Positions 27,085-46,253 of a stretch of 64,000 bases of DNA are shown here, one piece after another. The notes beneath the pieces are model-generated. The model was not told the origin of the DNA, did not search any database, and worked only from the letters and a program-made list of their open reading frames with translations. Source of the DNA: Roseovarius sp. S88 (GTDB lineage: Bacteria > Pseudomonadota > Alphaproteobacteria > Rhodobacterales > Rhodobacteraceae); contig NZ_CP146069.1 in the NCBI RefSeq assembly GCF_037023735.1, positions 1,033,501-1,097,500 on the forward strand, written 5' to 3'. The translations under genes and the position numbers were made by a program. Every line of letters begins with the position of its first letter. Position 1 is the stretch's first letter.

Positions 27085-28065
27085 CTATTGATCGGGATAG
27101 AGTACGATTTTCGGATGTGCGACGTGGCCTGCGAGCAGATCCTGAAAGGCTTGATAACCATCGGATAGAGTGCGTTTGTCAAACCAATCGAGCGGACCAA
27201 GGCGGCTGTCAAAAATGGCCTGCGCCGTGTCTCGGAAATCTTGGGTTGTGTAGGTATAGGTGCCGATAAAAGTGATCTCTTGCAGGGTCATGCGTCGGGC
27301 ATCGAGGCCCCCGGCATCCTCGCCCAGACCGACATGCGCGATCACGCCTCCGGGTTCCGCCATCGCAGACGCGGCAGCACGGGTTGCGGCATAGCCCACG
27401 GCGTCGATGATGATGGGAAACGTGCCCTCGGCTTGTGCGATGGCCTTTTGGTTGCACGTATCCTGCAAGAACTTACGCCGCGCATCGTTCGGCTCCGAAA
27501 GGGTGATGTCATCAACCCCCATGGCCTTGAGCGCCAGCGCTGCGGCGAGCCCAATCGCCCCGCCGCCGATAACCAAAGCGCGCCGATCCTGATACGGATG
27601 CAGGGCCTCAAGCGCCAGACGTGCGGCGTGCCAACTCACCGCCAACGGCTCAGCCAAAGCGGCCTTATCAAGCGCTGTGTCCTTCGGCACTGTGATAAGG
27701 TTTTGCTCCGGCATCGCGACAAGCTCGGCAAAGGCCCCTTCGCGCGGTGGCATGGAGATGATCTGCCGGGTTGGACACAGGTTTTCACGCCCCGATGTGC
27801 AGGCCGGGCAGGTGCCGCAAGTGACCAGCGGATTGATGGTGACGCGATCTCCTGCACGCGGGCCTCCAACAATCACGCCTGCCGCCTCATGCCCCAGAAT
27901 AAGCGGGGCCGGGCGGCGATTGTCATGGCCCAGATAGGCATGCATGTCAGAGCCGCAAATGCCCACGGCGGCGACACGGATGAGATGCTCTCCGTCACGT
28001 GGCGCGGCATCAGCAACGTCCCGGTAGCCCATCTGCTCCACACCGTCATAAACCAGCGCCTTCAT
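27085..28065 (-). CDS. hpsP: Zinc-dependent alcohol dehydrogenase of the MDR family, HpsP-like
   Basis: A 326-residue medium-chain dehydrogenase. Catalytic zinc ligands are visible in GICGSDMHA (Cys near residue 37) and GHEAAG (His-Glu near 58), structural-zinc cysteines in CGTCPACTSGRENLC near 83-97, and the NAD motif VIGGGAIGLAAA near 163. With the SDR and HpsN genes in one operon it fits HpsP, which together with HpsO is proposed to isomerise (S)- to (R)-2,3-dihydroxypropane-1-sulfonate through the keto form. Start ATG overlaps the SDR stop by 4 bases. Confidence 0.78.
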   Translation of the reverse strand: MKALVYDGVEQMGYRDVADAAPRDGEHLIRVAAVGICGSDMHAYLGHDNRRPAPLILGHEAAGVIVGGPRAGDRVTINPLVTCGTCPACTSGRENLCPTRQIISMPPREGAFAELVAMPEQNLITVPKDTALDKAALAEPLAVSWHAARLALEALHPYQDRRALVIGGGAIGLAAALALKAMGVDDITLSEPNDARRKFLQDTCNQKAIAQAEGTFPIIIDAVGYAATRAAASAMAEPGGVIAHVGLGEDAGGLDARRMTLQEITFIGTYTYTTQDFRDTAQAIFDSRLGPLDWFDKRTLSDGYQAFQDLLAGHVAHPKIVLYPDQ

Positions 28066-28835
28066 TTCGCGGTGAACCCCCCGTCGACCATGAGAACCTG
28101 TCCGGTGACGTAGCCTGAGGCCTCGGAGCACAAGAAAAGTAGCGGCCCGTCGATGTCGCGCAGCTCTCCGTTGCGGGCAACACAGGTTTGCGCAGCGTTG
28201 CGCGCGGCCCGGTCGGCATCACCGAATACGGCTTGGGTCAATTCGGTTGGGAAAAATCCGGGACCAATCGCATTGGCCATGATGCCATGCGATGACCACG
28301 CCTCGGCCATCGCACGCGTGAGCTGGGCGATGCCGCCTTTGGATGCACCATAGGCGATGCCACCGGGAAAGGCGCGCGTGGTCTGCAGCGAGGCGAAGTT
28401 GACGATGCGGCCCCAACCCTTGGATTTCATTGTCGGCACAAAGGCTTGGCTCAAGAAGAAGGGAGTGGAGAGGTTCAGCGCCAGCGTTTGGTCCCATCCT
28501 TCCGCCGTGACATCATCGGCAGCTTCTCGGGTGTTGATGCCGGCTGCATGAATAAGAATGTCAGGTGCACCAAAGGGTGCTGCAATCTTCGCCACGACGG
28601 TGTCGAGATCATCCCTGTTCGACACATCTGCGACGACCGTTTCAATGCCGACGCCAACTTCCGCTTTAAGATCCTCCAGCGCCTCTTTGCGCCGTGCCAC
28701 GCCAATCACGTAAGCTCCGGCAGCGGCCAAGGTCACAGCGGCGCGACGCCCCAATCCCGAGCTTGCGCCAGTCACGCAAGCCACATGGCCTGTCAGATCA
28801 AACAGATCGCGTGGGTCTTGTTCGGGATCACCCAT
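28062..28835 (-). CDS. hpsO: Short-chain dehydrogenase/reductase, HpsO-like
   Basis: A 257-residue SDR with the cofactor motif TGASSGLGRRAA near residue 22, NAG-equivalent HAAGIN near 90, and the catalytic Tyr-x-x-x-Lys in YGASKGG near 158. It lies between hpsN and hpsP in an overlapping operon, as expected for HpsO, which oxidises one enantiomer of dihydroxypropanesulfonate at C2. The ATG at 28835 is the listed start; a GTG at 28841 is possible. Either overlaps the hpsN stop by several bases. Confidence 0.8.
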   Translation of the reverse strand: MGDPEQDPRDLFDLTGHVACVTGASSGLGRRAAVTLAAAGAYVIGVARRKEALEDLKAEVGVGIETVVADVSNRDDLDTVVAKIAAPFGAPDILIHAAGINTREAADDVTAEGWDQTLALNLSTPFFLSQAFVPTMKSKGWGRIVNFASLQTTRAFPGGIAYGASKGGIAQLTRAMAEAWSSHGIMANAIGPGFFPTELTQAVFGDADRAARNAAQTCVARNGELRDIDGPLLFLCSEASGYVTGQVLMVDGGFTAK

Positions 28836-30135
28836 CGGCACTTAGATCGAAATTTTCGCGGGGGAAATATTTGGCCAGACGCACATCCGCCGCACGGGCA
28901 TGTCCTTCCATCCCCTCCAGACGCGAGATGCGCGCCGTGGCCTCAGCCACGGATTTGGATCCTTCGCGTGTGGCGCGCTGCCAGGTGACGATCTTCATGT
29001 ATTTGTGCACGCTTAGACCGCCTGTGTAGCTTGCAGCCCCTGACGTTGGCAGCACGTGGTTGGTGCCGGTGGCTTTGTCGCCATATGATACGGTGGTTTC
29101 TTCACCGAGAAACAGAGAGCCGTAGCAGGTCAGACGGTTCAGCCACCAATCAAGGTCTTCGGCCTGTACCGTCAGGTGCTCGGGCGCGTAGTCATCCGAG
29201 CAAGCCGCCATTTCTTCGCGGTCGGCACACACAATCACTTCGGCATAGTCGCGCCATGCGGCAAAAGCGTTGTCGCGGTTAAGCTCGGGCAGGTCTTCGA
29301 TCAGGCCGGGAACCAAGTCCATCACCTTCTCGGCCAGGTCACGTTGGTCTGTCACCAGCCAGACTGGCGAGTTGTACCCATGCTCGGCCTGGCTGACGAG
29401 ATCTGTGGCCACGATATGAGCGTCGGCTGTGTGATCAGCCAGGATGAGGCTGTCCGTAGGGCCGGCAATCATGTCGATGCCAACCTTGCCAAACAGGATG
29501 CGCTTGGCTTCGGCCACGAATTGGTTTCCAGGTCCCACCAGGATGTTGGCCTTGGGCAAGCCAAAGAGACCATATGTCATCGCCGCAACGCCCTGAACCC
29601 CGCCCATGGCCATGATTTTATCCGCACCGCAAATGTGCGCGGCGTATACAATCGCCGGGGCAATCCCGACGCCGGGGCGCGGGGGAGAGCAGGCGGTGAT
29701 ATGGCGACAGCCTGCGACCTTGGCGGTGGTCACGGTCATGATGGCACTGGCGATGTGGCTGTAGCGGCCACCGGGCGCGTAACACCCGGCAGCGTCCACT
29801 GGGATGGCTTTCTGACCGGCCACAAAGCCAGGCAGGATTTCCATCTCGACATCCGCCACAGTCGACTTCTGCATTTCCGCAAAGCGGCGCACATTGTCAT
29901 GGGCAAACTGGATGTCGGCCTTAAGCTTATCCGGCACCTGCTCACAAGCCGCGTCAATCTCTTGCTGCGTCAGAAGGGTGTTGCCGTCGTATTGATCGAA
30001 CTTCGCAGCATATTCCAGCGCCTTGGCATCACCGCCCGCTTCGATGTCGGACAGGATTCCTTGCACAGTGGCATGCACTTCTGACGCGTCAGACTTGGAC
30101 GTCAGTGTCGCTTTCTTGAGGTATTCGCGGGACAT
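28828..30135 (-). CDS. hpsN: Sulfopropanediol 3-dehydrogenase (histidinol dehydrogenase family)
   Basis: A 435-residue protein of the histidinol dehydrogenase superfamily. It has PVDAAGCYAPGGRY near residue 115, GPGNQFVAEAKRILFG near 210, IDMIAGPTDSL, and YAPEHLTV near 325, the zinc and catalytic region. No his-operon genes are present, and HpsO-, HpsP- and ComDE-type genes follow. The natural reading is HpsN, which oxidises (R)-2,3-dihydroxypropane-1-sulfonate to (R)-sulfolactate with two NAD+. The ATG at 30135 has AAGGA upstream; a longer in-frame extension to 30204 has none. Promoter region shared with the LacI gene. Confidence 0.85.
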   Translation of the reverse strand: MSREYLKKATLTSKSDASEVHATVQGILSDIEAGGDAKALEYAAKFDQYDGNTLLTQQEIDAACEQVPDKLKADIQFAHDNVRRFAEMQKSTVADVEMEILPGFVAGQKAIPVDAAGCYAPGGRYSHIASAIMTVTTAKVAGCRHITACSPPRPGVGIAPAIVYAAHICGADKIMAMGGVQGVAAMTYGLFGLPKANILVGPGNQFVAEAKRILFGKVGIDMIAGPTDSLILADHTADAHIVATDLVSQAEHGYNSPVWLVTDQRDLAEKVMDLVPGLIEDLPELNRDNAFAAWRDYAEVIVCADREEMAACSDDYAPEHLTVQAEDLDWWLNRLTCYGSLFLGEETTVSYGDKATGTNHVLPTSGAASYTGGLSVHKYMKIVTWQRATREGSKSVAEATARISRLEGMEGHARAADVRLAKYFPRENFDLSADG

Positions 30136-30270
30136 GGTGGTCGTTCCTTGGGTCAAACTGGGCAAACAATGCAGGTCTTTGCACCGGCAACGGGCAGAGA
30201 GCAAAGGGCGTGTCGCGGTCGTAGATCAAAAGCCATGTCTCACCCCCTTCGAAGAATCAGCCTTAGACTG

Positions 30271-30305
30271 TGTAAGCGCTTACATAATTTATGCAAGCGC
30301 TTACA
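30271..30305. promoter_or_regulatory. Twin LacI-type operators upstream of hpsN
   Basis: TGTAAGCGCTTACA (30271-30284) is a perfect 14-base palindrome with the central CG typical of LacI/GalR operators. A second copy, TGCAAGCGCTTACA (30292-30305), differs by one base. Their centres are 21 bases apart, two DNA turns, on the same helix face. They lie in the 243-base divergent region between hpsN and the LacI gene and probably repress one or both promoters. Confidence 0.8.
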
Positions 30306-30378
30306 TCAAGCTGTTTCAATGTATGTGTTTCATGCTATGTGGGTTCCGAAATGCCCTAGGAAAGGTCCGATCTCTGTT

Positions 30379-31383
30379 ATGGTCAAACCAGCGCCGACCC
30401 TCGACGATGTTGCCAAGATGGCCGGAGTGTCCACGGCTACAGTGTCGCGCTGCCTGAATGAGCCGGGCAAAGTGATTGAAACCACGAGAGACAAAGTGAT
30501 GAAGGCCGTCGATGCGTTGGGCTACACACCGAATTTCGCGGCGCGGGTTATGGCGGCCAAACGGAGCTTTACCATTGGCGCCATCGTCCCGACCCTGGAC
30601 AACGCCATTTTCGCCAAAGGTTTGCAAGCCTTTCAGGAAGCGTTGCACTCGCGGGGTTACACGCTTTTGGTGTCCAGTTCCGCCTACAAACCTGTTGTCG
30701 AAAAAGAACAAATTCGCACATTGGTGGCGCGAGGGGCGGATGGGCTATTGCTGATTGGATATGAACGCGAAGACCAGATCTACACCTACCTGGCGCAGCA
30801 AAATGTGCCTGCCCTGGTCGCATGGGCGTTTGATGCAAATGGGCCGGTGCCATCGGTTGGTTTCGACAACCACGCCGCGATGTACGCAATGGCCACCGAA
30901 GCGATTGATCGCGGCCATCGCCGGTTGGCCATGATTTCGGGCGCATGCACTGGCAACGATCGTGCGCAACGACGCCTGGACGGTGTGAAGGATGCGATGG
31001 CGGCCAGGGGGCTGTCACCCGATGCTCTTGCCGTTATCGAGACGGCTTATACGATCGAAGCGGGCGAGGCGGCGTTTGCCCGTCTCATGGCGCGCACACC
31101 CCGCGCCACGGCCGTCATCTGCGGCAACGACCTGCTGGCGGTTGGGGCGCTGCAAACGGCCAAGTCGCTTGGGCTTGATGTGCCGGGAGACGTCTCCCTC
31201 ACCGGGTTTGACGACATGGAGCTGGCGCGCATTGTGCACCCGACACTCACAACCGTTGCGGTGCCGCATCGTGAGATGGGCCAGACCGCTGCAGATGAAT
31301 TGATTGCGATGGTCGAAGGAAGCAGTCCCGGAAGATCGCGCTTGCTTGAGACACGTCTAGTCCTGCGGGCTTCGCTGGCCTGA
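30379..31383 (+). CDS. LacI-family transcriptional regulator of the hps/com operon
   Basis: A 334-residue LacI/GalR protein. The N-terminal helix-turn-helix and hinge are TLDDVAKMAGVSTATVSRCL and NFAARVMAAKRS (residues about 6-60), followed by a periplasmic-binding-protein-like effector domain ending near GFDDMELARIVHP. I chose the ATG at 30379, which begins the HTH at the usual distance; upstream in-frame codons would overlap the operators. Divergent from hpsN with twin palindromes between, so repression released by dihydroxypropanesulfonate or sulfolactate is the likely mode. Confidence 0.88.
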   Translation: MVKPAPTLDDVAKMAGVSTATVSRCLNEPGKVIETTRDKVMKAVDALGYTPNFAARVMAAKRSFTIGAIVPTLDNAIFAKGLQAFQEALHSRGYTLLVSSSAYKPVVEKEQIRTLVARGADGLLLIGYEREDQIYTYLAQQNVPALVAWAFDANGPVPSVGFDNHAAMYAMATEAIDRGHRRLAMISGACTGNDRAQRRLDGVKDAMAARGLSPDALAVIETAYTIEAGEAAFARLMARTPRATAVICGNDLLAVGALQTAKSLGLDVPGDVSLTGFDDMELARIVHPTLTTVAVPHREMGQTAADELIAMVEGSSPGRSRLLETRLVLRASLA

Positions 31384-31569: not shown

Positions 31570-33152
31570 ATGAATCTTGAACCGCAGCGCAGTGGTATTG
31601 AGTTGCCCAGCGGGACACAACTCCTAAGGGGGCAGTACGTCATCGAACGTCCGCTCTCGCAGGGGGGTTCGGGATTACCTATCTTGCCCGCGACAGCCTG
31701 AAGCGCCGTGTGGTCATCAAGGAATGCTTCCCCCAGGATTTATGCACACGCGCCGCGCTTCGGGTTTGCCCCAAGTCTGAACAGTTCACCAAGCGTTTCG
31801 ACACGGTGCTCGATCAGTTCAAACACGAAGCGTACCGCCTGGCCGCGCTGGAGCATCCCGGCATCGTCCGCGTGCATCAGGTGTTTGAGGAGAACGGAAC
31901 AGCCTTCCTCGGCATGGATTTTGTGAATGGCGAAGACCTGTGCACGATTGTCGAAGAATTTCCTGAGCGGTTGGATGGTGCTACGCTTTTACAGGTCGTG
32001 ACCGAAGCGCTCGAAGCGGTTCAGTACACCCACGAACAGGGGATCCTGCACCGCGACCTGGCGCCTGACAATTTCATCATTGACGCGCGCAACCGAGTGA
32101 CGCTGATCGATTTCGGGTCTTCGCTAGAAGCTGAGAACCAGGCTCAGACTGCTAGCAGCAAGCTATTGGCGGTGAAAGATGGGTATTCGCCGTTTGAGTT
32201 TTACGACGAAGCGGCTCAGCATGATGTCGTTAGTGATATCTATGCGTTGGGTGCAACCTTCCACTATCTGGTGACCGGCTATACCCCGCCAGATGCTGAA
32301 ATCCGCCGTCAGTCCGTAGAGGCCGACCGCCAGGATCCGTTCGAGCCGTTGCGCGGCGTGGACTGGGACCTTGATCAGGGATTTTTGAACCTGATCAACC
32401 AGGCTCTGAACATTTACCCGCAGGATCGCATCGCGAGTGCGGCACAATGGCTTCAGCATTTGAATGCGGCCCCTGCGGCGCAGCTTCAGTCTCAACCTCA
32501 GCCGCAGGCCCAAGTGCAGGCGGCTGTCCCCGCAACACCAGATCCGGTGTTGCATGTGCAGCCGGACACACCAGCCCCGGCTGTGGACGCACCCAAGCCG
32601 CTGCACGCGCCGGTGAAGGATGCGCCAGTGTCCGTGCCTGACCCTCGCGTCAAAGCATCGATGCCCACTGAGACCGAAAACAGCCCAAAACAGAAGACAC
32701 TGGCTGCCGCACCCCCGCCGGACCCAACGGCGATCCCACTCGACGCGCCGGAAATCGTATCAAAGATTTCTCAGCTCGTGTCCGACACCAATAGCAAGTT
32801 CAAACCCGGTGTCCCGCAATTGCTTCGGACCGCTGAGGATGTTGAGCGTGAGCAGGCGGCCAAGGCAGAAGTTGCAAAACCAAAATCGCAGCCTGTCGAC
32901 ATCTTTGGCAATCCGATCGAAGACGTGGATGCGTTCCTGGCCGAACAAGACGGAACCCAGCGTGGCAAGAAACGCAAGTCGAAAAACAAAGCAGGCACCA
33001 ACTCCCAAGACCCGAGCATGGAACAACATGCCGATTCAGAAGGCCGTGACCCGAACGACCCCAAGCCTGCGCGCAAAGGCGCGATGGGTCGTTTCTTTAA
33101 CAAACTTCTGCCCGGAAAAGAGTCAGGCGACTCTGTTGTTCTCCAGAACTAA
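31570..33152 (+). CDS. Hanks-type Ser/Thr protein kinase, one-base frameshift in this sequence
   Basis: Restoring one G in the six-G run at 31662-31667 joins an N-terminal stretch ending in the glycine loop (LSQGGFGITYLARD) to the rest, giving about 528 residues. The kinase domain spans about 15-290: Lys in VVIKECF (about 51), HRDLAPDN (about 161-168), DFGSS (about 181) and YSPFEFY. The tail is Pro/Gln/Ala-rich without a membrane segment, so the kinase looks cytoplasmic. It opens an operon with an FHA protein and PP2C phosphatase 11 bases downstream. Similar trios serve type VI secretion, but no secretion genes are present. Without the correction the kinase would lack its ATP-binding loop. 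Confidence 0.82.
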
Positions 33153-33163
33153 AGGAACAAAAA

Positions 33164-34606
33164 ATGAAATTTTTGCGTGATATTATTGAAGAAAAGCGTG
33201 CAGCCCGCGCCGGCGACGAGGCTCCGAACGCGCAGGCCGCCGAAGCGCCCACACTGGATATACCATCCGTCAATGACACAATGGACCGTGATGTGGCCCA
33301 ACCAGCGCCGAACGGGTCTGCGGATGAGATGGAATTTGATCTCAAAAGCCTTGGGCCGACACAAAGCTATGATGACGACGAAGGCTGGGTTGGTGATACG
33401 GCAAACGAAGGGGCTGCGATCAATGGGGATCTCTGCGGCTTGCATGACATGTTTGCCGATACCGAGACCGATGAAGGCGAAGCGGAGACGTCGGAGGCGT
33501 TGAACCTGCAAGGGTTTGAAGTCAAGCAAGAGGCGGACGCCGAAGACGAAGCGGATGCCGAAGAGCCAAGCCTTTCCGACGCGCTGGAAGCTGCGGTCGC
33601 TGACCTTGAAACGCTGCAGATCGAGTCTGAGACTGAGATGGACATCGATGCTTCGGAAGATACGAGCGAAGACGCTTGGGCAGAAGGCGACATGCCTGAG
33701 ACGGAGATGTCCGACGACGCGTTGGAGATGGCGGAAATCGAACAAGACGCGATGACCGAAGCTGCCTCTGACGATCTGTCGGAAGGTGCCACATCCGAGG
33801 ACGAGTTCTCCGAGGACGACAGTGCCTTGGACATTGATGAAACGGATGATCCCGAAGATGTGGCTGAGATCGAGGAAGTTGAACTGGACGCCTCGGAACC
33901 TGAGCTTGGTGTGGATGAGGAGGATATCTCTACAGTTGAAGAAAGTGAAGTCGCCCCAGAGGTTGAAGCCGTGACGGAGGCTCTGAAGGCGGAGGACGCG
34001 ACGGACGAAGCCAGCGAAGATGATCGTGCGGCCCCTGAAGCGATTGACGAGGCACAGCCCGAGATTGCCACAGATGCCCCAATGGCTGTGCCACTTCCAG
34101 CGGCCGGACGTGGGTCTGGCGGGCGTTCGGGGCGTGTGAAAACCCGTATCTTGGGCTTTACAGCGCCTTCGACCACCAGCGAGGATCCATTCGAGAAGGC
34201 TGGCGTGTCGGCCAAACCGACAGAGGCTTCGGCAAGCTTCCCGGTGGGATGGCTTGTGGTTGTTGACGGACCGGGCCGCGGCACAGCATTCACCATTTTT
34301 GATGGCGTGACGCAGATCGGGCGCGGCGAGGATCAAACCGTACGTCTGAATTTCGGCGACAATTCGATCTCGCGAGAGAACCACGCCGCGATTGCCTATG
34401 ACAATGAGCAACAGACCTTTTTCATCGGTCACGGTGGCAAGGCCAACCTGGTCCGGGTGAACAATCGTCCTGTGCTTAGCACGGAAGAGCTTCAGTCAGA
34501 AGACAAGGTGCGTATTGGCGAAACCACGCTGCGTTTTGTGGCGTTCTGCGGTGCAAACTTCTCGTGGGGTCACGACGAGGACGTCAAACATGCCTCAGCC
34601 CAATAA
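33164..34606 (+). CDS. FHA-domain protein with long acidic disordered region
   Basis: A 480-residue protein. Residues about 60-305 are low-complexity and rich in Asp, Glu, Ser and Ala. A basic patch (GRGSGGRSGRVKTR, about 315-328) precedes a C-terminal FHA domain (about 362-460) with the phosphothreonine-binding GR (386-387), SRENH (403-407) and a conserved Asn in VNNRPV. FHA domains bind phosphothreonine, so the adjacent kinase is the likely source of its ligand and the PP2C the eraser. It overlaps the phosphatase gene by 17 bases. The acidic region might be a multi-site phosphorylation or docking segment; it also generates long antisense frames that are not genes. Confidence 0.85.
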   Translation: MKFLRDIIEEKRAARAGDEAPNAQAAEAPTLDIPSVNDTMDRDVAQPAPNGSADEMEFDLKSLGPTQSYDDDEGWVGDTANEGAAINGDLCGLHDMFADTETDEGEAETSEALNLQGFEVKQEADAEDEADAEEPSLSDALEAAVADLETLQIESETEMDIDASEDTSEDAWAEGDMPETEMSDDALEMAEIEQDAMTEAASDDLSEGATSEDEFSEDDSALDIDETDDPEDVAEIEEVELDASEPELGVDEEDISTVEESEVAPEVEAVTEALKAEDATDEASEDDRAAPEAIDEAQPEIATDAPMAVPLPAAGRGSGGRSGRVKTRILGFTAPSTTSEDPFEKAGVSAKPTEASASFPVGWLVVVDGPGRGTAFTIFDGVTQIGRGEDQTVRLNFGDNSISRENHAAIAYDNEQQTFFIGHGGKANLVRVNNRPVLSTEELQSEDKVRIGETTLRFVAFCGANFSWGHDEDVKHASAQ

Positions 34607-35534
34607 AATTCATTATGACGCGGCCTCGGCCATGAGCCTGGGGCGCCGTGACCGCCAGGAAGATGCTGTTGCGATGGATTTCCCGGTGGGCACACCGCAC
34701 GGCTTTGCTGTGCTGGCCGACGGAATGGGCGGACATGCCGCCGGAGACGTCGCCAGCCAGATTGTCGTGACTGAGATGTTCAGCGAGCTGAAGATGTTGA
34801 TCAGCGCCCCGAAAGACATGGAACAGAACATCCGCGACAAGCTATGTGCCGCGATCCAGGACACCAACATGTGCATCGAGCATATGGCGAGCTCTTCGCC
34901 GAATGTGTCTGTGATGGGGGCTACGGCGTTGGTGCCGGTGATCTTTGGGGAACGGCTTTATTGGGTGTCCGTTGGTGACTCGCCGCTTTTCCTCTTTCGC
35001 GAGGGCAAGCTGGAGCGGTTGAACGAAGATCACTCGATGGCACCTCAGATCGACGAGATGCAAACCAAAGGTTTGATCAATCTCGATGAGGCCAAAAATC
35101 ATCCGGATCGTAGCGCGCTGACATCCGTGTTGGCGGGCAATGACATACCTAAAATTGATTGTTCCGGCGCGCCTGTGTCGCTTCAGTCAGGCGATATCGT
35201 TATCGCGGCGAGTGACGGGCTTGAGTATCTCAGCCCTGAGCGGATCGAAGATGTGCTCGCCGCCTATCAAACACGTCCCAGCACCGAGATCAGCGCCGCC
35301 CTGCTGCGTGAAATCGAAGCCTTAGATGACCCCGATCAGGACAATGTATCGCTGTGCCTGATCAAAGTGAAAGGCGAGGAACAGGATCACGCCGCTGTGC
35401 CCGATCCGATTGCCGCCGTAACCCGAATTGTTCAGGCCGACCAGGCGTCGCGCCCGTCTTCTGTCACTGTCCTGTCGCGTAAATCGGGCGGTGCGTCGCA
35501 AGTTGTGTGTGTTTCCAGGAAGGTAAAGATGTGA
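34590..35534 (+). CDS. PP2C-family (PPM) Ser/Thr protein phosphatase
   Basis: A 314-residue phosphatase. Metal-binding aspartates appear in RRDRQEDAV (near 25), LADGMGGHAAGD (44), SDGLEYLSP (near 205) and DPDQDNVS (near 245), in the order usual for PPM enzymes. An extra C-terminal tail of about 60 residues follows the domain. The ATG at 34590 lies inside the end of the FHA gene, and the stop overlaps the next GTPase start by 4 bases. It presumably reverses phosphorylation by the operon's kinase and may act on the FHA protein or GTPases. Confidence 0.87.
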   Translation: MPQPNKIHYDAASAMSLGRRDRQEDAVAMDFPVGTPHGFAVLADGMGGHAAGDVASQIVVTEMFSELKMLISAPKDMEQNIRDKLCAAIQDTNMCIEHMASSSPNVSVMGATALVPVIFGERLYWVSVGDSPLFLFREGKLERLNEDHSMAPQIDEMQTKGLINLDEAKNHPDRSALTSVLAGNDIPKIDCSGAPVSLQSGDIVIAASDGLEYLSPERIEDVLAAYQTRPSTEISAALLREIEALDDPDQDNVSLCLIKVKGEEQDHAAVPDPIAAVTRIVQADQASRPSSVTVLSRKSGGASQVVCVSRKVKM

Positions 35535-36763
35535 CGACGGCACAGACCATAGACTATCTGTCCCGGCAATTGGAGGACGTCCTCGACCACGAGGAAGTGT
35601 CAGGCCGGTACAAGACCCTCGGTGCTCAGTTGCTGTCGCAGCTGCGCAAACCAATTCAGATATCTTTTGTCGGCTTACCGGGCAGCGGTAAAACCGGGCT
35701 GATTAACATGATGCTGAATGGGTTCAGCGTACCATCTTTTGAAGGGCCTGATGTGGTCGAACTGGTTTATGGACCTGAGGCTGCGACATGTTTTGTCCGA
35801 AACGGGGAAACTGTACAACGCGAGCTGGGTATTGTCGAAACGGCACCTGATGGCGAAGGACCCTATCATGTGCGCCTTGAACTGCCGGATGAGGGTCTTT
35901 TGGTGCAGTCTTTTGCCGAAATCAGATTGCCCAAAGACGGGTCCAGGCAACAGGCATTGCTTGAATATGCCGTGGGCAGCTCGACCATTCTGATCTGGTG
36001 TTCGGAGCTGTTTGAGGAGGCCGAGCAGGCGATTTGGTCCGATCTTCCGGAGCATATCAAGGATCACGGTTTTCTTGCGCTGACGATGGCAGACCGGCAA
36101 ATGATGAAAGGCCGTCTTACAGATCGCATTGCGGAACTGGAAGAATTTGTTTCAGACGAGTTTTTTGGCCTCTACCCGATTGCCACGCTACAGGCCATCA
36201 CAGCCCGCAGCGAGCCAGGTCCGCAAAATGGCGACATGTGGAAACACAGCGGTGGTGAGGCGCTTTTTGATGCGATCACGCGGCAGGTCTCGCTGGGTCG
36301 CGGAGAAGATGTTGATCGTGTAAAGCTCCTGTTGGAACAGCTGGATGTTGAGCCGGAAAACGTGTCGGCTCCGGCCCCTGATAAGGTTGTTGCCAGCGCC
36401 GCGCCCAAGCCGATGGGTAAGTTGCAGCCCGATGCCGCCCTAACCAAGCGCGATGCGCTGCAGAAATCGCTAATCCGCCTGACCAAAGGGGCCGAAGACA
36501 TGTTGCAGGACGTGTCTGGCCTGGAAGGCGATGACTGCAACGATGTGCTTGAAAACTGTCTTGAGACCGTGCGCGACATGTCGGACATGCTGTCTGAGGC
36601 GGCAGGTAGCGACCCGTCGCTGACAGAATTGCTCGAAGAGGCACAGGAAGGCGAAAACATGCTTTTGCTCTTCCAGCTTGAGAAAGACGAAGGCGCCGCG
36701 GCGGATGCCGTGACGCTTATGTTGCAACTGAAAAAGGAAATAACGGCACACGCGCAAGCGTGA
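35531..36763 (+). CDS. P-loop GTPase-like protein of the kinase/FHA operon
   Basis: A 410-residue protein with a P-loop GLPGSGKT (48-55) near the N-terminus. A G4-like TMAD occurs near residue 185 in ALTMADRQM, but no clean DxxG is seen, so GTP specificity is uncertain. The C-terminal third (about 300-410) is predicted helical and acidic. I chose the GTG at 35531, with GGAAGG 7 bases upstream, overlapping the phosphatase stop. Its stop overlaps the dynamin-like gene by 4 bases. I do not recognise a named family; context makes it a partner of the two dynamin-like GTPases. Confidence 0.7.
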   Translation: MTTAQTIDYLSRQLEDVLDHEEVSGRYKTLGAQLLSQLRKPIQISFVGLPGSGKTGLINMMLNGFSVPSFEGPDVVELVYGPEAATCFVRNGETVQRELGIVETAPDGEGPYHVRLELPDEGLLVQSFAEIRLPKDGSRQQALLEYAVGSSTILIWCSELFEEAEQAIWSDLPEHIKDHGFLALTMADRQMMKGRLTDRIAELEEFVSDEFFGLYPIATLQAITARSEPGPQNGDMWKHSGGEALFDAITRQVSLGRGEDVDRVKLLLEQLDVEPENVSAPAPDKVVASAAPKPMGKLQPDAALTKRDALQKSLIRLTKGAEDMLQDVSGLEGDDCNDVLENCLETVRDMSDMLSEAAGSDPSLTELLEEAQEGENMLLLFQLEKDEGAAADAVTLMLQLKKEITAHAQA

Positions 36764-38904
36764 CAAAGGATGACCTCCGTAATGCCACCCGCTTGACAGA
36801 ATTTTGTGGGACAGATGCGATCCCTGCCGCGGATAAAACAATGAATGTAGAAGTTCGAAAAACCGAAACGACCGAGTTGCGCAAGGCCCCGCGCCCCGCC
36901 ACGTTGAGTGCGGGGCTTGAGCTTTTGGAGCATTTCGCAGAAGACACGAAACGCGTTGACGAAGCCCTGCAAACACTTGCCGCGCTGACCGGCACGAACA
37001 GCGCCAAGGCCGTGGCGCGGTTGCGCAAGGAGCTGGCAGAGTTCGAGCCGACCATCACCGTGCTGGGCCAGGTCAAGGCAGGCAAGACCGCGTTGGTCAA
37101 TGCCATGGCCGGGTGGTCCGATCTTTTGCCGTCGGACGTGAACCCGTGGACCTCTGTTGTCACTTCGTTGCATCTCAAGCCAGGTGAATCCCGGTCTGAA
37201 AACGGGGCGTGCTTCAAGTTCATGACCGACGATGAGTGGGAACGCCTGCTCAACAAGGGCGGTCGTATGGGCGAGTTGGCCAGCCGCGCTGGTGCCGAGA
37301 GTGAGCTGCAGAAGATCAGTGAGCAGATTGAGATCGTACGCCAGAAAGCCCGGCATCGGTTGGGCAAGAAGTTTGAACTCTTGATCGGGCAAGAGCATGA
37401 TTATGGCTATTTCGACAAGAACCTGCTGGAGAAATACATCTGCCTCGGCGATGACTTCGATGGCGATGAAGAGGTCAGTGCCGATCAGGAAGAGCAGGGC
37501 CGCTTTGCCGAAATCCTGCGGTCTGCCGATCTTTACCTGAACAGCACGACCGTGCCGAGCAACCTGTGCCTGCGCGACACGCCGGGTGTCAACGATACCT
37601 TTATGATGCGCGAGCAGATCACGGTGCAGGCTATTCGTGACAGTAAGCTTTGCGTTGTTGTGCTGTCGGCGAACCAGGCACTGAGTTCCGTGGATATGGG
37701 CCTTATTCGCCTCATCTCGAACCTCAAATCGCGCAATATCGTGATTTTCGTCAACCGCGTGGATGAGCTTCAAGCCCCTGCGCAGCAGGTGCCAGAAATT
37801 GAGCGCAGTATCCGCCAGACTCTGCGTCAGAAACGGGCTCCTGAAAACATCGACATCATTTTTGGCAGCGCCTATTGGGCCAATGCCGTGCTGTCTGGTG
37901 ATGTGCAGAAGATGCCGCAAGAGCGTATCAAGGCGCTGCTGAAATGGGCCGAAACTGATCGTGATATCAAGTGCAGCGAAACGGAGCCTTTTGAAATTGT
38001 TTGGGAATTGTCTGGTCTGCCGTCCTTGTTCCGGGCCTTGTCCGAACGCATTGTCATGGACATCGCCAATCCATTCCTGAGCAAAATCACCACCACAGCT
38101 GTGAGCCTCGCCACAGGTCAGCAGGCGGTGTCCAAGGTCCAGCTTGGCGAAGCCAAGGGCACGTCGATGACACCCGAAGAGGCGCTCTTTTCGTTTGACC
38201 GGATCGCGGATCAGCACACGCAGGCCCTGCAACGTGACTTGGTTCAGGCAACAGAAGATTATTACGCCCGCGCCGATCGTGCCCATGATCAGTTCATTGA
38301 GCGCGCCACACAGTCGCTCATTGCACATCTTGAACAGTGGGGGCCGTCGGATGGCTGGAAGTATGATCCCACAGGGCTTCGGCTTTTGATGCGGTCGGCG
38401 TATTCGGTGTTTGGTAAGCGCGCCCAATCCATCGCCGAACAACATTTTGACGCGGCCCTTGCGGATATCGCAGAGATTTACAGCTCTACATACGGGGAAG
38501 CTGTGGCAGGTTTTCAACTTGCCGCTCCCGCCGTGCCAAGTACGCCCCCGCCGATTTCTTTGGGTCAAACAATTGCGCTTGATTTCCATGATGGCTGGTG
38601 GGTCTCTTGGTGGCAGCGGCTTCGGGGATATGAAACATTTGCCCGCAAGTTCCGTCAGCTCATTGCCGATGAAACCCAGGACTTCATGGCACAGCTGAAA
38701 ACCATCCAAACCCAGGAAGTACGGGATCAGATCCTGGCCACGCTGCGTCTGTTCCTGGACGATCAGAAAGACATCCTGTCCGACATCGGCAAGGGCACGG
38801 ATGCCGATGCCAAAGTGCAGAGCCGGATGGGCCGAAGCACGCATGCCACGCAGACAGAAATCCTCGATGATGTGCTGTCTGTTTTGCGCGGTTATGCGGG
38901 CTGA
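36760..38904 (+). CDS. Dynamin-like large GTPase
   Basis: A 714-residue GTPase with G1 GQVKAGKT (103-110), G3 DTPGV (273-277) and G4 NRVD (332-335), separated as in bacterial dynamin-like proteins. A long helical region follows, with a hydrophobic/aromatic patch (FHDGWWVSWWQRLRGY, near 620) that could contact membrane. There is no clear transmembrane helix. Bacterial dynamins remodel or protect membranes; many occur as pairs, and a second dynamin-type GTPase follows here after 15 bases. It starts at a GTG overlapping the upstream stop. A long open frame on the opposite strand is a shadow. Confidence 0.8.
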   Translation: MTKDDLRNATRLTEFCGTDAIPAADKTMNVEVRKTETTELRKAPRPATLSAGLELLEHFAEDTKRVDEALQTLAALTGTNSAKAVARLRKELAEFEPTITVLGQVKAGKTALVNAMAGWSDLLPSDVNPWTSVVTSLHLKPGESRSENGACFKFMTDDEWERLLNKGGRMGELASRAGAESELQKISEQIEIVRQKARHRLGKKFELLIGQEHDYGYFDKNLLEKYICLGDDFDGDEEVSADQEEQGRFAEILRSADLYLNSTTVPSNLCLRDTPGVNDTFMMREQITVQAIRDSKLCVVVLSANQALSSVDMGLIRLISNLKSRNIVIFVNRVDELQAPAQQVPEIERSIRQTLRQKRAPENIDIIFGSAYWANAVLSGDVQKMPQERIKALLKWAETDRDIKCSETEPFEIVWELSGLPSLFRALSERIVMDIANPFLSKITTTAVSLATGQQAVSKVQLGEAKGTSMTPEEALFSFDRIADQHTQALQRDLVQATEDYYARADRAHDQFIERATQSLIAHLEQWGPSDGWKYDPTGLRLLMRSAYSVFGKRAQSIAEQHFDAALADIAEIYSSTYGEAVAGFQLAAPAVPSTPPPISLGQTIALDFHDGWWVSWWQRLRGYETFARKFRQLIADETQDFMAQLKTIQTQEVRDQILATLRLFLDDQKDILSDIGKGTDADAKVQSRMGRSTHATQTEILDDVLSVLRGYAG

Positions 38905-38919
38905 GAAAGGAAAAACCAA

Positions 38920-39810
38920 ATGACAGCCATGACCAACATGAGCGAAACCGAGGCACAATCCGAGCGCAAGCCGCGCGTCGCCCTGATGGGGGAGTTCAGT
39001 GCGGGCAAAAGCACTTTGCTTAACATGTTGTTGTCACAAGCATCTTTGCCTGTTCGCATCACCGCAACCAGTGTGCCGCCTGTGTGGATCGCCTATGGAG
39101 AACCGGCCGCGGCGCGTGTGACCCACGATGATGTTCAAGAAGACCTTCCAGTGGGCGAGATCGCCGATACCTCTCTGGAAGACACCAAGTACATCCGCCT
39201 TTGGCTTAAATCAGACGTTTTGGAATTTTGTGATCTGTTTGATCTGCCTGGAATTTCCGACCCGAATATGGATCGCGAGGTTCTGATGGCGGTGTTTGAC
39301 GAGGTGGATTCAGTGATCTGGTGCACCCATGCCACGCAAGCCTGGCGCCAATCTGAGGCGGCCACTTGGGAAGAGCTTTCGGCGCGCACCAAGGGGCACA
39401 ACCTTCTGGTGATCACACAATTTGACAAGATCACGTCCGATCGCGACCGGATGCGTCTTTTGTCCCGGGTGGGCAAAGAAACCGAAGGGCAATTCGATGC
39501 AATCTTTCCGCTCGCATTGCTCGACGCAACCGAAGCCAAGGACAAAGACGCCTGGATTCAAAGCGGTGCTGCTGCGTTTTGCGAGCATCTGATCGATGAT
39601 CTGATGAAGCGCGAATTGATTGAAGAGACGCAAGACGCCTTGTCGGAGGATAATGACGGTCTTGCGGAGATCGAGCCGTTGGAAGATCCCAATCGGATCA
39701 TTCCAAAACGTGTCTCTCGTCCGAAACCCAAGGATGGTGCCGCGCGGGTCCGTCCGCCAGCGGGAGAAACTGGATCGGAACATTCTGATCTGAAAAATGC
39801 CGATGCCTGA
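38920..39810 (+). CDS. Small dynamin-type GTPase
   Basis: A 296-residue protein with G1 GEFSAGKS (24-31), G3 DLPG (108-111) and G4 TQFD (166-169). GEFSAGKS is typical of the bacterial dynamin G domain. It lacks the long helical stalk of the neighbour, so it may be a regulatory or heterodimer partner. The C-terminal 60 residues are charged and probably disordered. AGAAAGG precedes the start. It lies between the large dynamin and a roadblock-like gene, an arrangement reminiscent of GTPase/roadblock pairs such as MglA/MglB, though this GTPase is not MglA. Confidence 0.78.
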   Translation: MTAMTNMSETEAQSERKPRVALMGEFSAGKSTLLNMLLSQASLPVRITATSVPPVWIAYGEPAAARVTHDDVQEDLPVGEIADTSLEDTKYIRLWLKSDVLEFCDLFDLPGISDPNMDREVLMAVFDEVDSVIWCTHATQAWRQSEAATWEELSARTKGHNLLVITQFDKITSDRDRMRLLSRVGKETEGQFDAIFPLALLDATEAKDKDAWIQSGAAAFCEHLIDDLMKRELIEETQDALSEDNDGLAEIEPLEDPNRIIPKRVSRPKPKDGAARVRPPAGETGSEHSDLKNADA

Positions 39811-39863
39811 ATGTATTGGGCATAACCGACAGCAGGGGGTCTGCTGATGATGGAGTGGTGGGA

Positions 39864-40250
39864 ATGAATATTGAGCAGGTATTAGACGCAGGGCGCAAGT
39901 CGGTCGCGGGATGTTCCGTGGCCGCCTTTGGCGATACCTCCGCGCGTCTGATCCTGCGGGCCAGCCATCGTGAAGGCATTCGCCGCGAATATCTTGATGC
40001 GCTGTGTGACCATGCCGCAAGTTGTTTCGATTTGCTGGATGCTACATGGGATGTGCCTGGTCTTGAAGAGGGCGAATGCTCGACGCTCAACGAGGCGGCC
40101 ATTCTGGCCAAGGGTGAGACAATGGTATTCGTGCGGTCCGATCATTCGCAATCAGAGTTCCTGTGTCTGGTGACAGATGACCCGCAGGCCGCCCCGAAAC
40201 TTTTTTCTGCAGCGCATCGCGCCTTGCAAAAAATCTCGGCAGTACAGTGA
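39864..40250 (+). CDS. Roadblock/LC7-like small protein
   Basis: A 128-residue protein whose order of hydrophobic strands and helices fits a roadblock/LC7 fold: an N-terminal helix, GCSVAAFGDTSARLIL, a long helix near 45-60, then a strand pair around MVFVRSDHSQ and FLCLVTDD, and a final helix. Such proteins dimerise and regulate small GTPases. The call rests on pattern, not on a diagnostic motif. The ATG at 39864 has a GGAG upstream. Its stop overlaps the next gene by one base (TGATG), indicating coupled translation. Confidence 0.55.
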   Translation: MNIEQVLDAGRKSVAGCSVAAFGDTSARLILRASHREGIRREYLDALCDHAASCFDLLDATWDVPGLEEGECSTLNEAAILAKGETMVFVRSDHSQSEFLCLVTDDPQAAPKLFSAAHRALQKISAVQ

Positions 40251-41071
40251 TGGCGACCCAGGTGGCAAAGGCAGAGATCATACCAAAGGAACGGCCCGCA
40301 CTAGACCGGGCCCTGAAACGGTTGGCTCGACCCGAACGGTTGATCTATGGCGCGCCCATAATGGCCGGAACAGGCAAACATGATCTTCTCTGCGCGGTTT
40401 TGCGCGAAATCGATGAGACGATCCTGCCGCGCGAGATCATCATAGAATGTCAGGTCTTTGGCACCATGCGGCTCAGCGTGTCCAACCGCCGTTTGGCTGC
40501 TATTCGATTTGATCATGACGTGGATCAAACACCGATGGTCGAGGCCGAAGACAGCCAGGACATGGCCAAGCAGTTTGCCCAGATCCTGACGCAGGCGTTC
40601 GACACAAGCAAAGAGGCACGTATCGTCCGCCCCCGGCGTCTTCCACCGGGGACAAGCTTTAACATGTCGTGTTCGTGTCAAAGCCTGGCAGATGCGGCTG
40701 GTATCGAGGATTTTCGGCTAGCGCCTGCAGTGGAGGAAGCGCGGTTTGATGATGTAATCCAAGGGGTTGCCAGGGCTTTGGTGAAAACCAATGGGGACTT
40801 GGCTAGCTACGCAACGACCGGATCACAAGGCGAGGTGGACTTGTTAAAGGAGTTCCACAGCAATTTCCAAAACGGCCACAGCGCGCGTGGACATGCGCGG
40901 CGTCTGAACCTTGATGAACCTCAATGTCTGATGGTGCCTTTGGCCAACGCAAGGACCATCGTCCTGACCGTGGGCGAGGAAGGTCACATGTTGGCTTTGG
41001 TCCCCAACGAAGATACGCCGCGTTTGACACAAGCATGGCACGCAGAGCGCAACGCCCTCACCACCAGCTGA
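40250..41071 (+). CDS. Hypothetical protein, last gene of the GTPase operon
   Basis: A 273-residue soluble protein I do not recognise. It has no signal peptide or membrane segment. An N-terminal basic helix (about 10-30) is followed by mixed alpha/beta sequence with IIIECQVFGTMRLSVSNRRLAAIRF near 65-90, and the C-terminal part has ANARTIVLTVGEEGHMLAL near 235, which resembles the end of a second roadblock-like module. A tandem of two such modules is possible. The start overlaps the upstream stop. 91 bases separate it from the response regulator gene, probably ending the operon. Confidence 0.6.
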   Translation: MATQVAKAEIIPKERPALDRALKRLARPERLIYGAPIMAGTGKHDLLCAVLREIDETILPREIIIECQVFGTMRLSVSNRRLAAIRFDHDVDQTPMVEAEDSQDMAKQFAQILTQAFDTSKEARIVRPRRLPPGTSFNMSCSCQSLADAAGIEDFRLAPAVEEARFDDVIQGVARALVKTNGDLASYATTGSQGEVDLLKEFHSNFQNGHSARGHARRLNLDEPQCLMVPLANARTIVLTVGEEGHMLALVPNEDTPRLTQAWHAERNALTTS

Positions 41072-41162
41072 TTTCAAACCGGGCGATGCGCATTTTGACG
41101 CAGCTTGGCTCATTTACACATCCGTACAGGCATCCCCTTCGTATTTGTTTACGGAGGATAAA

Positions 41163-41717
41163 ATGGCGAAGTCTTTTACAGGCGAAACGCTTTTGATTGT
41201 CGAAAATGACGACGTGTTTCGCGAGCAGTTGACCAAAGTGATGCGCAATCGGGGCTTTGACACCGTTGCGGCCTCAGGGCTTGAAGAGGCAAAGGCGGCC
41301 ATCATGACGCGCGCGCCTGCGTTTGCGGTCATCGATTTGCATCTGGATGACGGTTCGGGGCTGGAAGTCATTGAAGAGCTCAAAATGTACTCAGCCGAAG
41401 CACGTGCGGTGATCCTGACTGGATATGGGAACACGCCTACGGCCGTTGCGGCAGTGAAGCTCGGTGCAGTTGACTACCTCGCCAAACCTGCAGATGCCGA
41501 TGAGATCATCGATGCGCTCTTGGCGGCTGATGGGGTCATGCCACCTGCTCCGGAAAACCCGATCTCGCCCGAAGAGGCCAAGCGCGTGCATATCGAGCGG
41601 TTTTTGGAACGGACCGATGGCAACATCACAAAGACAGCCCGCCTTTTGAAAATGCATCGCCGCACACTACAACGTATTTTGAAACGCACACCAGATATCG
41701 GACAGGACAGTGGCTGA
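41163..41717 (+). CDS. PrrA/RegA/ActR-family response regulator
   Basis: A 184-residue regulator of exactly the PrrA/RegA layout: receiver (about 8-120), proline-rich linker (PPAPENPISPEE) and a Fis-type C-terminal helix-turn-helix (TKTARLLKMHRRTLQRILKR). The phosphoacceptor is D58, with T86 and K108 conserved. The acidic pocket reads E14-N15 rather than Asp-Asp, so phosphorylation could be altered. GGAGG precedes the ATG at 41163. The family controls redox and energy genes in alphaproteobacteria and is normally linked to a RegB/PrrB kinase and SenC; neither is here, so this is likely a paralogue rather than the main PrrA. Confidence 0.82.
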   Translation: MAKSFTGETLLIVENDDVFREQLTKVMRNRGFDTVAASGLEEAKAAIMTRAPAFAVIDLHLDDGSGLEVIEELKMYSAEARAVILTGYGNTPTAVAAVKLGAVDYLAKPADADEIIDALLAADGVMPPAPENPISPEEAKRVHIERFLERTDGNITKTARLLKMHRRTLQRILKRTPDIGQDSG

Positions 41718-45221: not shown

Positions 45222-46187
45222 CTAGAAATCGACTTCGATGGCTTTGCCCTGCGCGACGGCCATATCCACAACGCTTGCGGCGACCGCGAGATCCTGAAGA
45301 CCCACTCCAGTTCCATCGAAAAGCGTGATCTGATCCGCGCTTTCGCGTCCTGGATGGGTGCCGTTGATCACCGCGCCGATCTGGTGCACGTCTCCTTCGG
45401 AGATCAGGCCCTGACCCACCGCGTGCTGTGCTTCGCCGATGCTGATGGACTGCGCGACTTCGTCGGTGAACACCGTGGCCTTTTGCAAGAGGGCCGGTTC
45501 CACCTCTTGCTTGCCAATGGTGTCTGTTCCCATGCAGGCCACATGCGTGCCTGGGCTGACGTGATCGGCCATTAGGCTGGCGTTGAAGGAAGAGGTGATC
45601 GAGATGATCACATCCGCCTCGGTCATGCCGCTTAGCTCAACCGCTTCAAAGGGTAGACCCGCCTCGGTCGCGACCTTTTCAATGTTGGGCAGCATGTCAG
45701 GGTGGTAGTTCCAGCCAATGACTTTCTCAAAGGGGCGCTGTTCCAATGCCTGACGCAGTTGGAATGTGGCCTGATGACCTGCGCCAACCATGCCGATCAC
45801 CTTGGCGTCTTCCCGTGCGAGATGCTTGATTGAGACGGATGAAGCGGCGGCGGTCCGTAGCGCGGTCAGAAGATTGCCGCCCACCATTGCTTTGGCCTTG
45901 CCCGTATCCGGATCAAACAGGAACACGGTAGATTGGTGATTGATGATGCCCTTGGTTTCAAGGTTGTTGGGCCAATAACCGCCTGCTTTCAGTCCAAGGG
46001 TTAAGCCCGCCCGGTCGAATCCGCCCTTGAAGCCATAGAGCGCATCTTCGTGGCCAATCGCTTCGCGCACCACGGGGAAGTTGTAGGCGTCACCCGCCGC
46101 CATCGCGCCGAATATCTTTTCCACCGCATCAAAGGCAGCTTCGCGTGTCATAAGGTCCGCGATTTCGCGTTCGGGTACTATGATCAT
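45222..46187 (-). CDS. bhcD: Iminosuccinate reductase of the beta-hydroxyaspartate cycle
   Basis: A 321-residue ornithine cyclodeaminase/mu-crystallin family protein with LTALRTAAASSVSIKHLA near residue 105 and the NAD-binding MVGAGHQATFQLRQAL near 133. In the bhc cluster it reduces iminosuccinate to L-aspartate, closing the amino cycle with BhcA. The ATG at 46187 has AAGGAAAG upstream. It is the last gene of bhcABCD, 66 bases after bhcC, and ends at a strong terminator. It shares fold and presumed chemistry with eutC (21701-22693). Confidence 0.9.
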   Translation of the reverse strand: MIIVPEREIADLMTREAAFDAVEKIFGAMAAGDAYNFPVVREAIGHEDALYGFKGGFDRAGLTLGLKAGGYWPNNLETKGIINHQSTVFLFDPDTGKAKAMVGGNLLTALRTAAASSVSIKHLAREDAKVIGMVGAGHQATFQLRQALEQRPFEKVIGWNYHPDMLPNIEKVATEAGLPFEAVELSGMTEADVIISITSSFNASLMADHVSPGTHVACMGTDTIGKQEVEPALLQKATVFTDEVAQSISIGEAQHAVGQGLISEGDVHQIGAVINGTHPGRESADQITLFDGTGVGLQDLAVAASVVDMAVAQGKAIEVDF

Positions 46188-46253
46188 GGTCTTTCCTTGC
46201 AAAAACCCGAGGTCAGCAGCGCCGACCCCGGGTCGTTATTTGTATTGATATGC

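Follow-up and report, generated by a model that had tools for sequence, protein, structure and literature searches.

A conserved eight-gene operon of Rhodobacterales sets a kinase–FHA–PP2C module beside a pair of dynamin-like GTPases and predicted roadblock-type proteins

To our knowledge, the control of bacterial dynamins is poorly understood. The described systems closest to the locus reported here resemble it in part: the paired dynamin-like proteins (DLPs) of Campylobacter and Nostoc, the LeoABC set of enterotoxigenic Escherichia coli (ETEC), roadblock–GTPase modules such as MglA/MglB, in which MglB acts as GTPase-activating protein (GAP) or localization factor for MglA, and the type VI secretion threonine phosphorylation pathway PpkA/PppA/Fha, with kinase, PP2C and FHA genes together in type VI clusters. 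Within a stretch of 64,000 nt from Roseovarius sp. S88 (contig NZ_CP146069.1, positions 1,033,501–1,097,500; hereafter the window, to whose first nucleotide all coordinates of the locus refer), a cluster of eight genes at 31570–41071 places such parts side by side. The parts are of known kinds; as for their combination, no description of the operon and no named system matching it were found in the open-licence literature of PubMed Central (PMC), in line with an earlier note on this DNA that had proposed an undescribed system.

All eight genes lie on the plus strand with overlaps or short gaps, just as the earlier note had described them. The first three encode a Hanks-type Ser/Thr kinase that is frameshifted in this assembly (gene 1, 31570–33152; Pfam PF00069, 1.4e-29), an FHA protein (gene 2, 33164–34606; PF00498, 2.7e-07) and a PP2C-type phosphatase (gene 3, 34590–35534; PF13672, 2e-11), whose start was placed by eye at the first ATG. 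They are followed by a degenerate small dynamin-type GTPase (gene 4, 35531–36763), a large dynamin-like GTPase (gene 5, 36760–38904; PF00350, 8.6e-15), a small dynamin-type GTPase of 296 residues (gene 6, 38920–39810; PF00350, 2.2e-14), a protein of predicted roadblock/LC7 fold (gene 7, 39864–40250) and an unnamed protein with a possible C-terminal roadblock-like domain (gene 8, 40247–41071). The Pfam matches support the kinase, FHA, PP2C and large and small dynamin assignments previously made by reading the translations, while genes 4, 7 and 8 had no significant Pfam match. No promoter or terminator signals above chance were detected at the operon, and a PHROGs search with six proteins returned no match.

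These genes, which had been proposed to belong together, are anything but rarely co-located. When genome contigs were scanned with the large DLP, 266 relatives were confirmed, the best 80 of which were used for locus counts. All eight genes were present in identical order and strand in 67 of those 80 loci, a figure that describes nearest relatives only, since more distant ones carry sister arrangements. Twelve of the 13 incomplete loci run into a contig edge; the sole one lacking this explanation (L076) had no recognized gene 7 and a short gene 8. The eight-gene cluster is a conserved unit, with co-location far above chance. Outside the operon genes, the most shared flanking open reading frame (ORF) family reached only 20 of these loci. 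The unit is thus clearly delimited and has probably moved from site to site; a search for an empty site using both neighbors yielded no clear one.

In the samples searched, the system is restricted in its distribution. Of 36 genomes in the genus sample (own genome included), 16 have the large DLP, and one of these 16 (G028) has a two-pair type described below. DLP relatives of any type, i.e. sister types besides the eight-gene form, were seen in 49 of the 198 family-sample genomes, one of them a weak match (E 9.6e-5). When the DLP profile was run against 289 class and 299 phylum genomes, all matches below 1e-100 fell within the window's own family, and those outside it (E 1.7e-8 and weaker) were short GTPase-motif stretches. 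Likewise, gene 7 relatives were detected in 2 of the 289 class genomes, both from this family. Strains of Leisingera, Shimia and Roseovarius carry the eight-gene form and Ruegeria the two-pair form; 18 plasmid records hold a DLP relative (Leisingera 12, Ruegeria 5, Rhodobacter 1).

Genes 5 and 6 are adjacent in all 67 complete loci and have conserved GTPase motifs: G1, G3 and G4 were found in gene 5 of 67/67 operons, and gene 6 retains G1 and G3 in 67/67 and G4 in 66/67. The 'triple GTPase' of the earlier note therefore holds for these two members and says too much of the third, gene 4, whose G3 motif is lost. Gene 4 is homologous to gene 6 (hhalign probability 99.8%, E 1.1e-27) and keeps its P-loop in 65 of 67 operons; its DxPG (G3) switch was recovered in 2 of 67 by positional pattern, or 1 of 68 aligned rows. 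Judged by these comparisons, gene 4 is a hitherto unreported small-DLP paralogue that has lost the G3 motif and, because the P-loop is kept while the switch is gone, probably a pseudo-GTPase.

The nearest solved relatives of gene 5 by profile were 2j68 (E 3.3e-13) and 5owv (3.4e-12), which we take to be Nostoc BDLP1 and a Campylobacter DLP, with the best-matching stretches in the GTPase part. Its true start probably lies near 36841, because conservation begins there. Close to residues 613–618, a WWxxWW patch is conserved in 66/67 operons; a broader collection of 17 DLPs also has it in its consensus, and it may represent a membrane contact.

The final stretch of the operon, 39864–41071, which had been singled out for structure prediction, comprises two genes, 7 and 8, the first of which has the roadblock fold in its predicted structure. 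The gene 7 model (predicted local distance difference test score, pLDDT, of 89) shows the alpha-beta-beta-alpha-beta-beta-beta-alpha order of roadblock/LC7 proteins and has MglB as its closest match (template-modeling score 0.74–0.75). That gene 7 has an MglB-like fold, as modeled, is new here and agrees with the earlier description of a roadblock-like protein, though sequence profiles did not find it: no roadblock profile was among the 19 Pfam families matched by 56 gene 7 proteins. The C-terminal part of gene 8 is closest in predicted fold to the roadblock domains of RagC/Ragulator, and this protein, too, may thus end in a roadblock-like domain not reported before.

In the signaling half, the kinase frame starting from the ATG at 31570 stops inside the glycine-rich loop, the remainder being encoded in another frame that holds the lysine, HRD-PDN and DFG motifs. 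A close relative (L019) has a kinase that is intact at this loop. Across the complete operons, the glycine-rich loop motif lies within the kinase ORF in 62 of 67 cases, HRD..PDN is present in 65 and DFG in all 67. The FHA protein consists of a long acidic N-terminal region, the motif RVKTRLLGF and a C-terminal FHA domain. The motif (..KT...GF) is kept in 65/67 operons and recurs in both sister FHA proteins read; it might be phosphorylated or serve in docking. The FHA signature GR...SRxNH was found in 63/67 operons. The PP2C motif DGMGGH is found in 66/67 operons.

None of the eight window proteins, with the kinase represented by its downstream piece, contains a transmembrane-like segment as judged by hydrophobicity only (highest KD19 value, 1.44), and because of this the operon probably encodes cytosolic proteins. 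In the related operons, some kinases, PP2Cs and other products (2 to 6 of 67 per gene; none for FHA) exceeded the hydrophobicity line, as did 39 of 67 DLPs, in which the stretch lies inside the GTPase domain.

More distant relatives combine the same parts differently. Two Ruegeria plasmids encode, in this order, a first large and small DLP, a roadblock protein, gene 8, a second large and small DLP, the kinase, the FHA protein, PP2C and two proteins annotated as transporter substrate-binding. In Leisingera sp. S132, an effector half (DLP, small DLP, roadblock protein, gene 8) faces a signaling half on the opposite strand (kinase, two binding proteins, FHA protein, PP2C, gene 4), and further genomes of the family hold simpler pairs of a DLP and a small DLP. 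Both sister kinases tested have one hydrophobic, transmembrane-like segment each. One of the two has a weak PDZ match, and one sister binding protein a weak LysM match, all of these, like the equally weak substrate-binding matches themselves, below cut-off. The sister binding proteins are putatively exported, their N-termini having been judged by eye. Together, the sister loci suggest a periplasmic or envelope input.

Two side observations concern these arrangements. In L120 (16304–25343) and L121 (24862–31449), kinase, FHA and PP2C genes beside two substrate-binding-annotated proteins form a candidate periplasmic input for Ser/Thr kinase signaling. L108 (7068–13097) and L109 (6769–12691) each carry a roadblock gene, gene 8 and a gene for an unassigned ~400 aa protein (a longer ORF in L109), followed by genes for a DLP and a small DLP, both of the second type.

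In a small-GTPase tree that sampled the window, 12 complete loci out of the 67 and 20 variant ones, gene 6 grouped with the first small DLPs (97/89) and gene 4 with a set including the second small DLPs from loci with two pairs (95/87). Gene 5, in the DLP tree, sided with the first large DLPs at slightly lower support (93/99). On the simplest reading of these trees, the eight-gene form would have lost the second large DLP, whose small partner would have persisted in degenerate form. The order of events could differ, as L106 has an extra DLP pair besides a gene-4-like stretch.

We tentatively propose, while giving it rather less than an even chance, that the window operon is a reduced form of an undescribed Rhodobacterales family of dynamin machines under phosphorylation control. 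The full form would take its signal from periplasmic binding proteins and a transmembrane Ser/Thr kinase and pass it via FHA and PP2C to two dynamin hetero-pairs held by a roadblock pair; in the reduced form, one large dynamin would have been lost, its small partner would now be a pseudo-GTPase adaptor and the kinase would be soluble. If true, this would offer an example, in bacteria, of dynamins regulated by roadblock proteins and of membrane remodeling gated by Ser/Thr phosphorylation.

As to how the operon itself might work, our preferred reading, which we hold at just short of an even chance, is a phospho-gated, roadblock-regulated dynamin pair that responds to an envelope signal by acting on the inner membrane. 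Genes 5 and 6 would form a hetero-pair of dynamin-type GTPases, in which gene 5 has room for a helical body and could touch the membrane through its Trp-rich patch, whereas gene 6 would be little beyond a GTPase domain. Genes 7 and 8 would contribute roadblock domains that bind these GTPases and control which nucleotide state they are in or where they assemble. The pseudo-GTPase encoded by gene 4 probably competes with gene 6 or serves as a nucleotide-dependent adaptor, and might tie the effector half to the signaling half. There, the kinase would phosphorylate a threonine, possibly that of the KT motif in the FHA protein or one on a GTPase partner; the FHA domain would bind the resulting phosphopeptide, whereupon the GTPases would be recruited or released, and PP2C would reset the switch. 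Because sister operons pair a kinase that has a transmembrane-like segment with putative periplasmic binding proteins, a signal from the periplasm or envelope is the most likely input; as output, the inner membrane may be tethered, sealed or reshaped. A fixed operon of kinase, phosphatase, phosphothreonine reader, pseudo-GTPase and roadblock-type proteins with a dynamin pair makes dynamin control directly testable in marine bacteria. It would also join bacterial Ser/Thr signaling to membrane remodeling and add an independent instance in which roadblock proteins work with GTPases.

The dynamin pair might instead seal or condemn membranes once the kinase module senses infection. Such a role in anti-phage defense, which the earlier note had listed as one option, appears unlikely to us. 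Patchy occurrence in the genus and family samples, variable flanks and plasmid copies would all fit it, as would the similarity of the kinase to PADLOC kinases and the weak matches of the DLPs to LeoA/LeoBC; the kinase resemblance, however, seems to be that of kinase domains in general, and the matches to Leo are only partial (E about 1e-7). The genomic neighborhood speaks against it as well. From either flank of the 67 loci, the closest mechanically called ORF with a length of 150 aa or more was taken, which gave 132 ORFs, or 127 after leaving out five long ones. Only 3 or 4 of these 127 matched PADLOC at 1e-10 (TniQ twice, and two TIR-type families once each, perhaps in one ORF), ruling against a defense-island location, and the 25 commonest flanking families among 86 comprised regulator, transport and metabolic families and TniQ. 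As the DLP also had no match among phage records, phage defense finds little support. Separately from this question, autoinducer synthase (PF00765) matches were seen in 5 of the 127 flanking ORFs.

Alternatively, the operon could encode a positioning or polarity switch, in which the roadblock proteins are GAPs or localization factors and the GTPases mark a cell site with no membrane remodeling. The closeness of the gene 7 model to MglB, the second possible roadblock protein encoded by gene 8 and the resemblance of gene 4 to a non-cycling paralogue speak for this view. Yet the GTPases match the dynamin family, with no Ras-type family above cut-off, the conserved Trp-rich patch of the DLP would suit membrane contact, and motility or polarity families are absent from the 25 commonest flanking families, and we consider this reading, too, unlikely.

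An aid to outer-membrane vesicle formation or export, as proposed for LeoABC, is a rather slim prospect. In E. coli, loss of this dynamin set approximately halves vesicle cargo (PMC4159319). However, LeoA was placed in the periplasm, while the window proteins lack any transmembrane-like segment (by hydrophobicity; a signal-peptide predictor was not run), and the Leo similarity is, again, partial.

A type VI secretion accessory role through the threonine phosphorylation pathway is hardly tenable despite the adjacent kinase, FHA and PP2C genes and was rejected, in agreement with the earlier note: the own genome has no TssK match, in the genus sample TssK occurred in 0 of 16 genomes with the DLP versus 1 of 20 lacking it, and no association emerged across the 198 family genomes (14 of 49 with DLP vs. 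31 of 149 without; Fisher p 0.33, kinship uncorrected; joint count made by hand from two lists, with both 198-genome samples taken as the same genomes). A link to photosynthetic membranes was likewise dismissed: in the genus sample, the reaction-center family Photo_RC was present in 8 of the 16 genomes that have the DLP and in 13 of the 20 that do not (p 0.50).

Just downstream of the operon lies a response regulator gene (41145–41717), which was left out of the unit because, of the loci searched, just the window, L019 and L020 have it beside the operon, and because close copies turned up in four more of 60 genomes searched, two of which lack a DLP match. It is a paralogue of the redox regulator ActR/PrrA, below the NCBIfam cut-off, and another similar copy of this type is encoded elsewhere in the own genome. 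Elsewhere in the window, genes for a Zn-dependent dehydrogenase, a short-chain dehydrogenase/reductase (SDR) and a HisD-like protein lie beside a LacI-type regulator gene (27085–31383), an arrangement that we take to resemble hpsP-hpsO-hpsN for dihydroxypropanesulfonate degradation. The gene at 45222–46202 encodes the iminosuccinate reductase BhcD (NF045643, 581.5 bits, above cut-off), which belongs to the beta-hydroxyaspartate cycle.

Set against the described systems, the operon shares with the type VI threonine phosphorylation pathway that kinase, PP2C and FHA protein are encoded together, and differs from it in having no genomic association with TssK. With LeoABC of ETEC it has in common several dynamin-type genes in a row and a partial PADLOC match (E about 1e-7). 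In LeoABC, however, one DLP is split over leoC-leoB upstream of leoA, whereas gene 5 is unsplit, with G1 and G3 in one gene, and kinase, FHA, PP2C or roadblock genes are not mentioned for LeoABC in the available part of its description (PMC4159319). Like MglA/MglB and other bacterial roadblock–GTPase modules, the operon sets a predicted roadblock fold (gene 7) beside GTPase genes, but here the GTPases are of the dynamin type, and the 56 gene 7 proteins lack a Pfam roadblock match. A further likeness, in resemblance only, is to the eukaryotic Rag GTPase–Ragulator system, given that the C-terminal fold of gene 8 is nearest to RagC/Ragulator roadblock domains and that active and inactive GTPase-type partners stand beside roadblock proteins. 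With the paired bacterial DLPs Cj-DLP1/2 of Campylobacter and BDLP1 of Nostoc (PMC6104087), it shares adjacent DLP genes, dynamin-type G motifs and profile matches to 2j68 and 5owv. In contrast to these pairs, the partner encoded by gene 6 has only 296 residues, and the dynamin pair of the window operon is accompanied by a third copy that is degenerate, by a kinase/FHA/PP2C module and by one or two proteins of the roadblock type.

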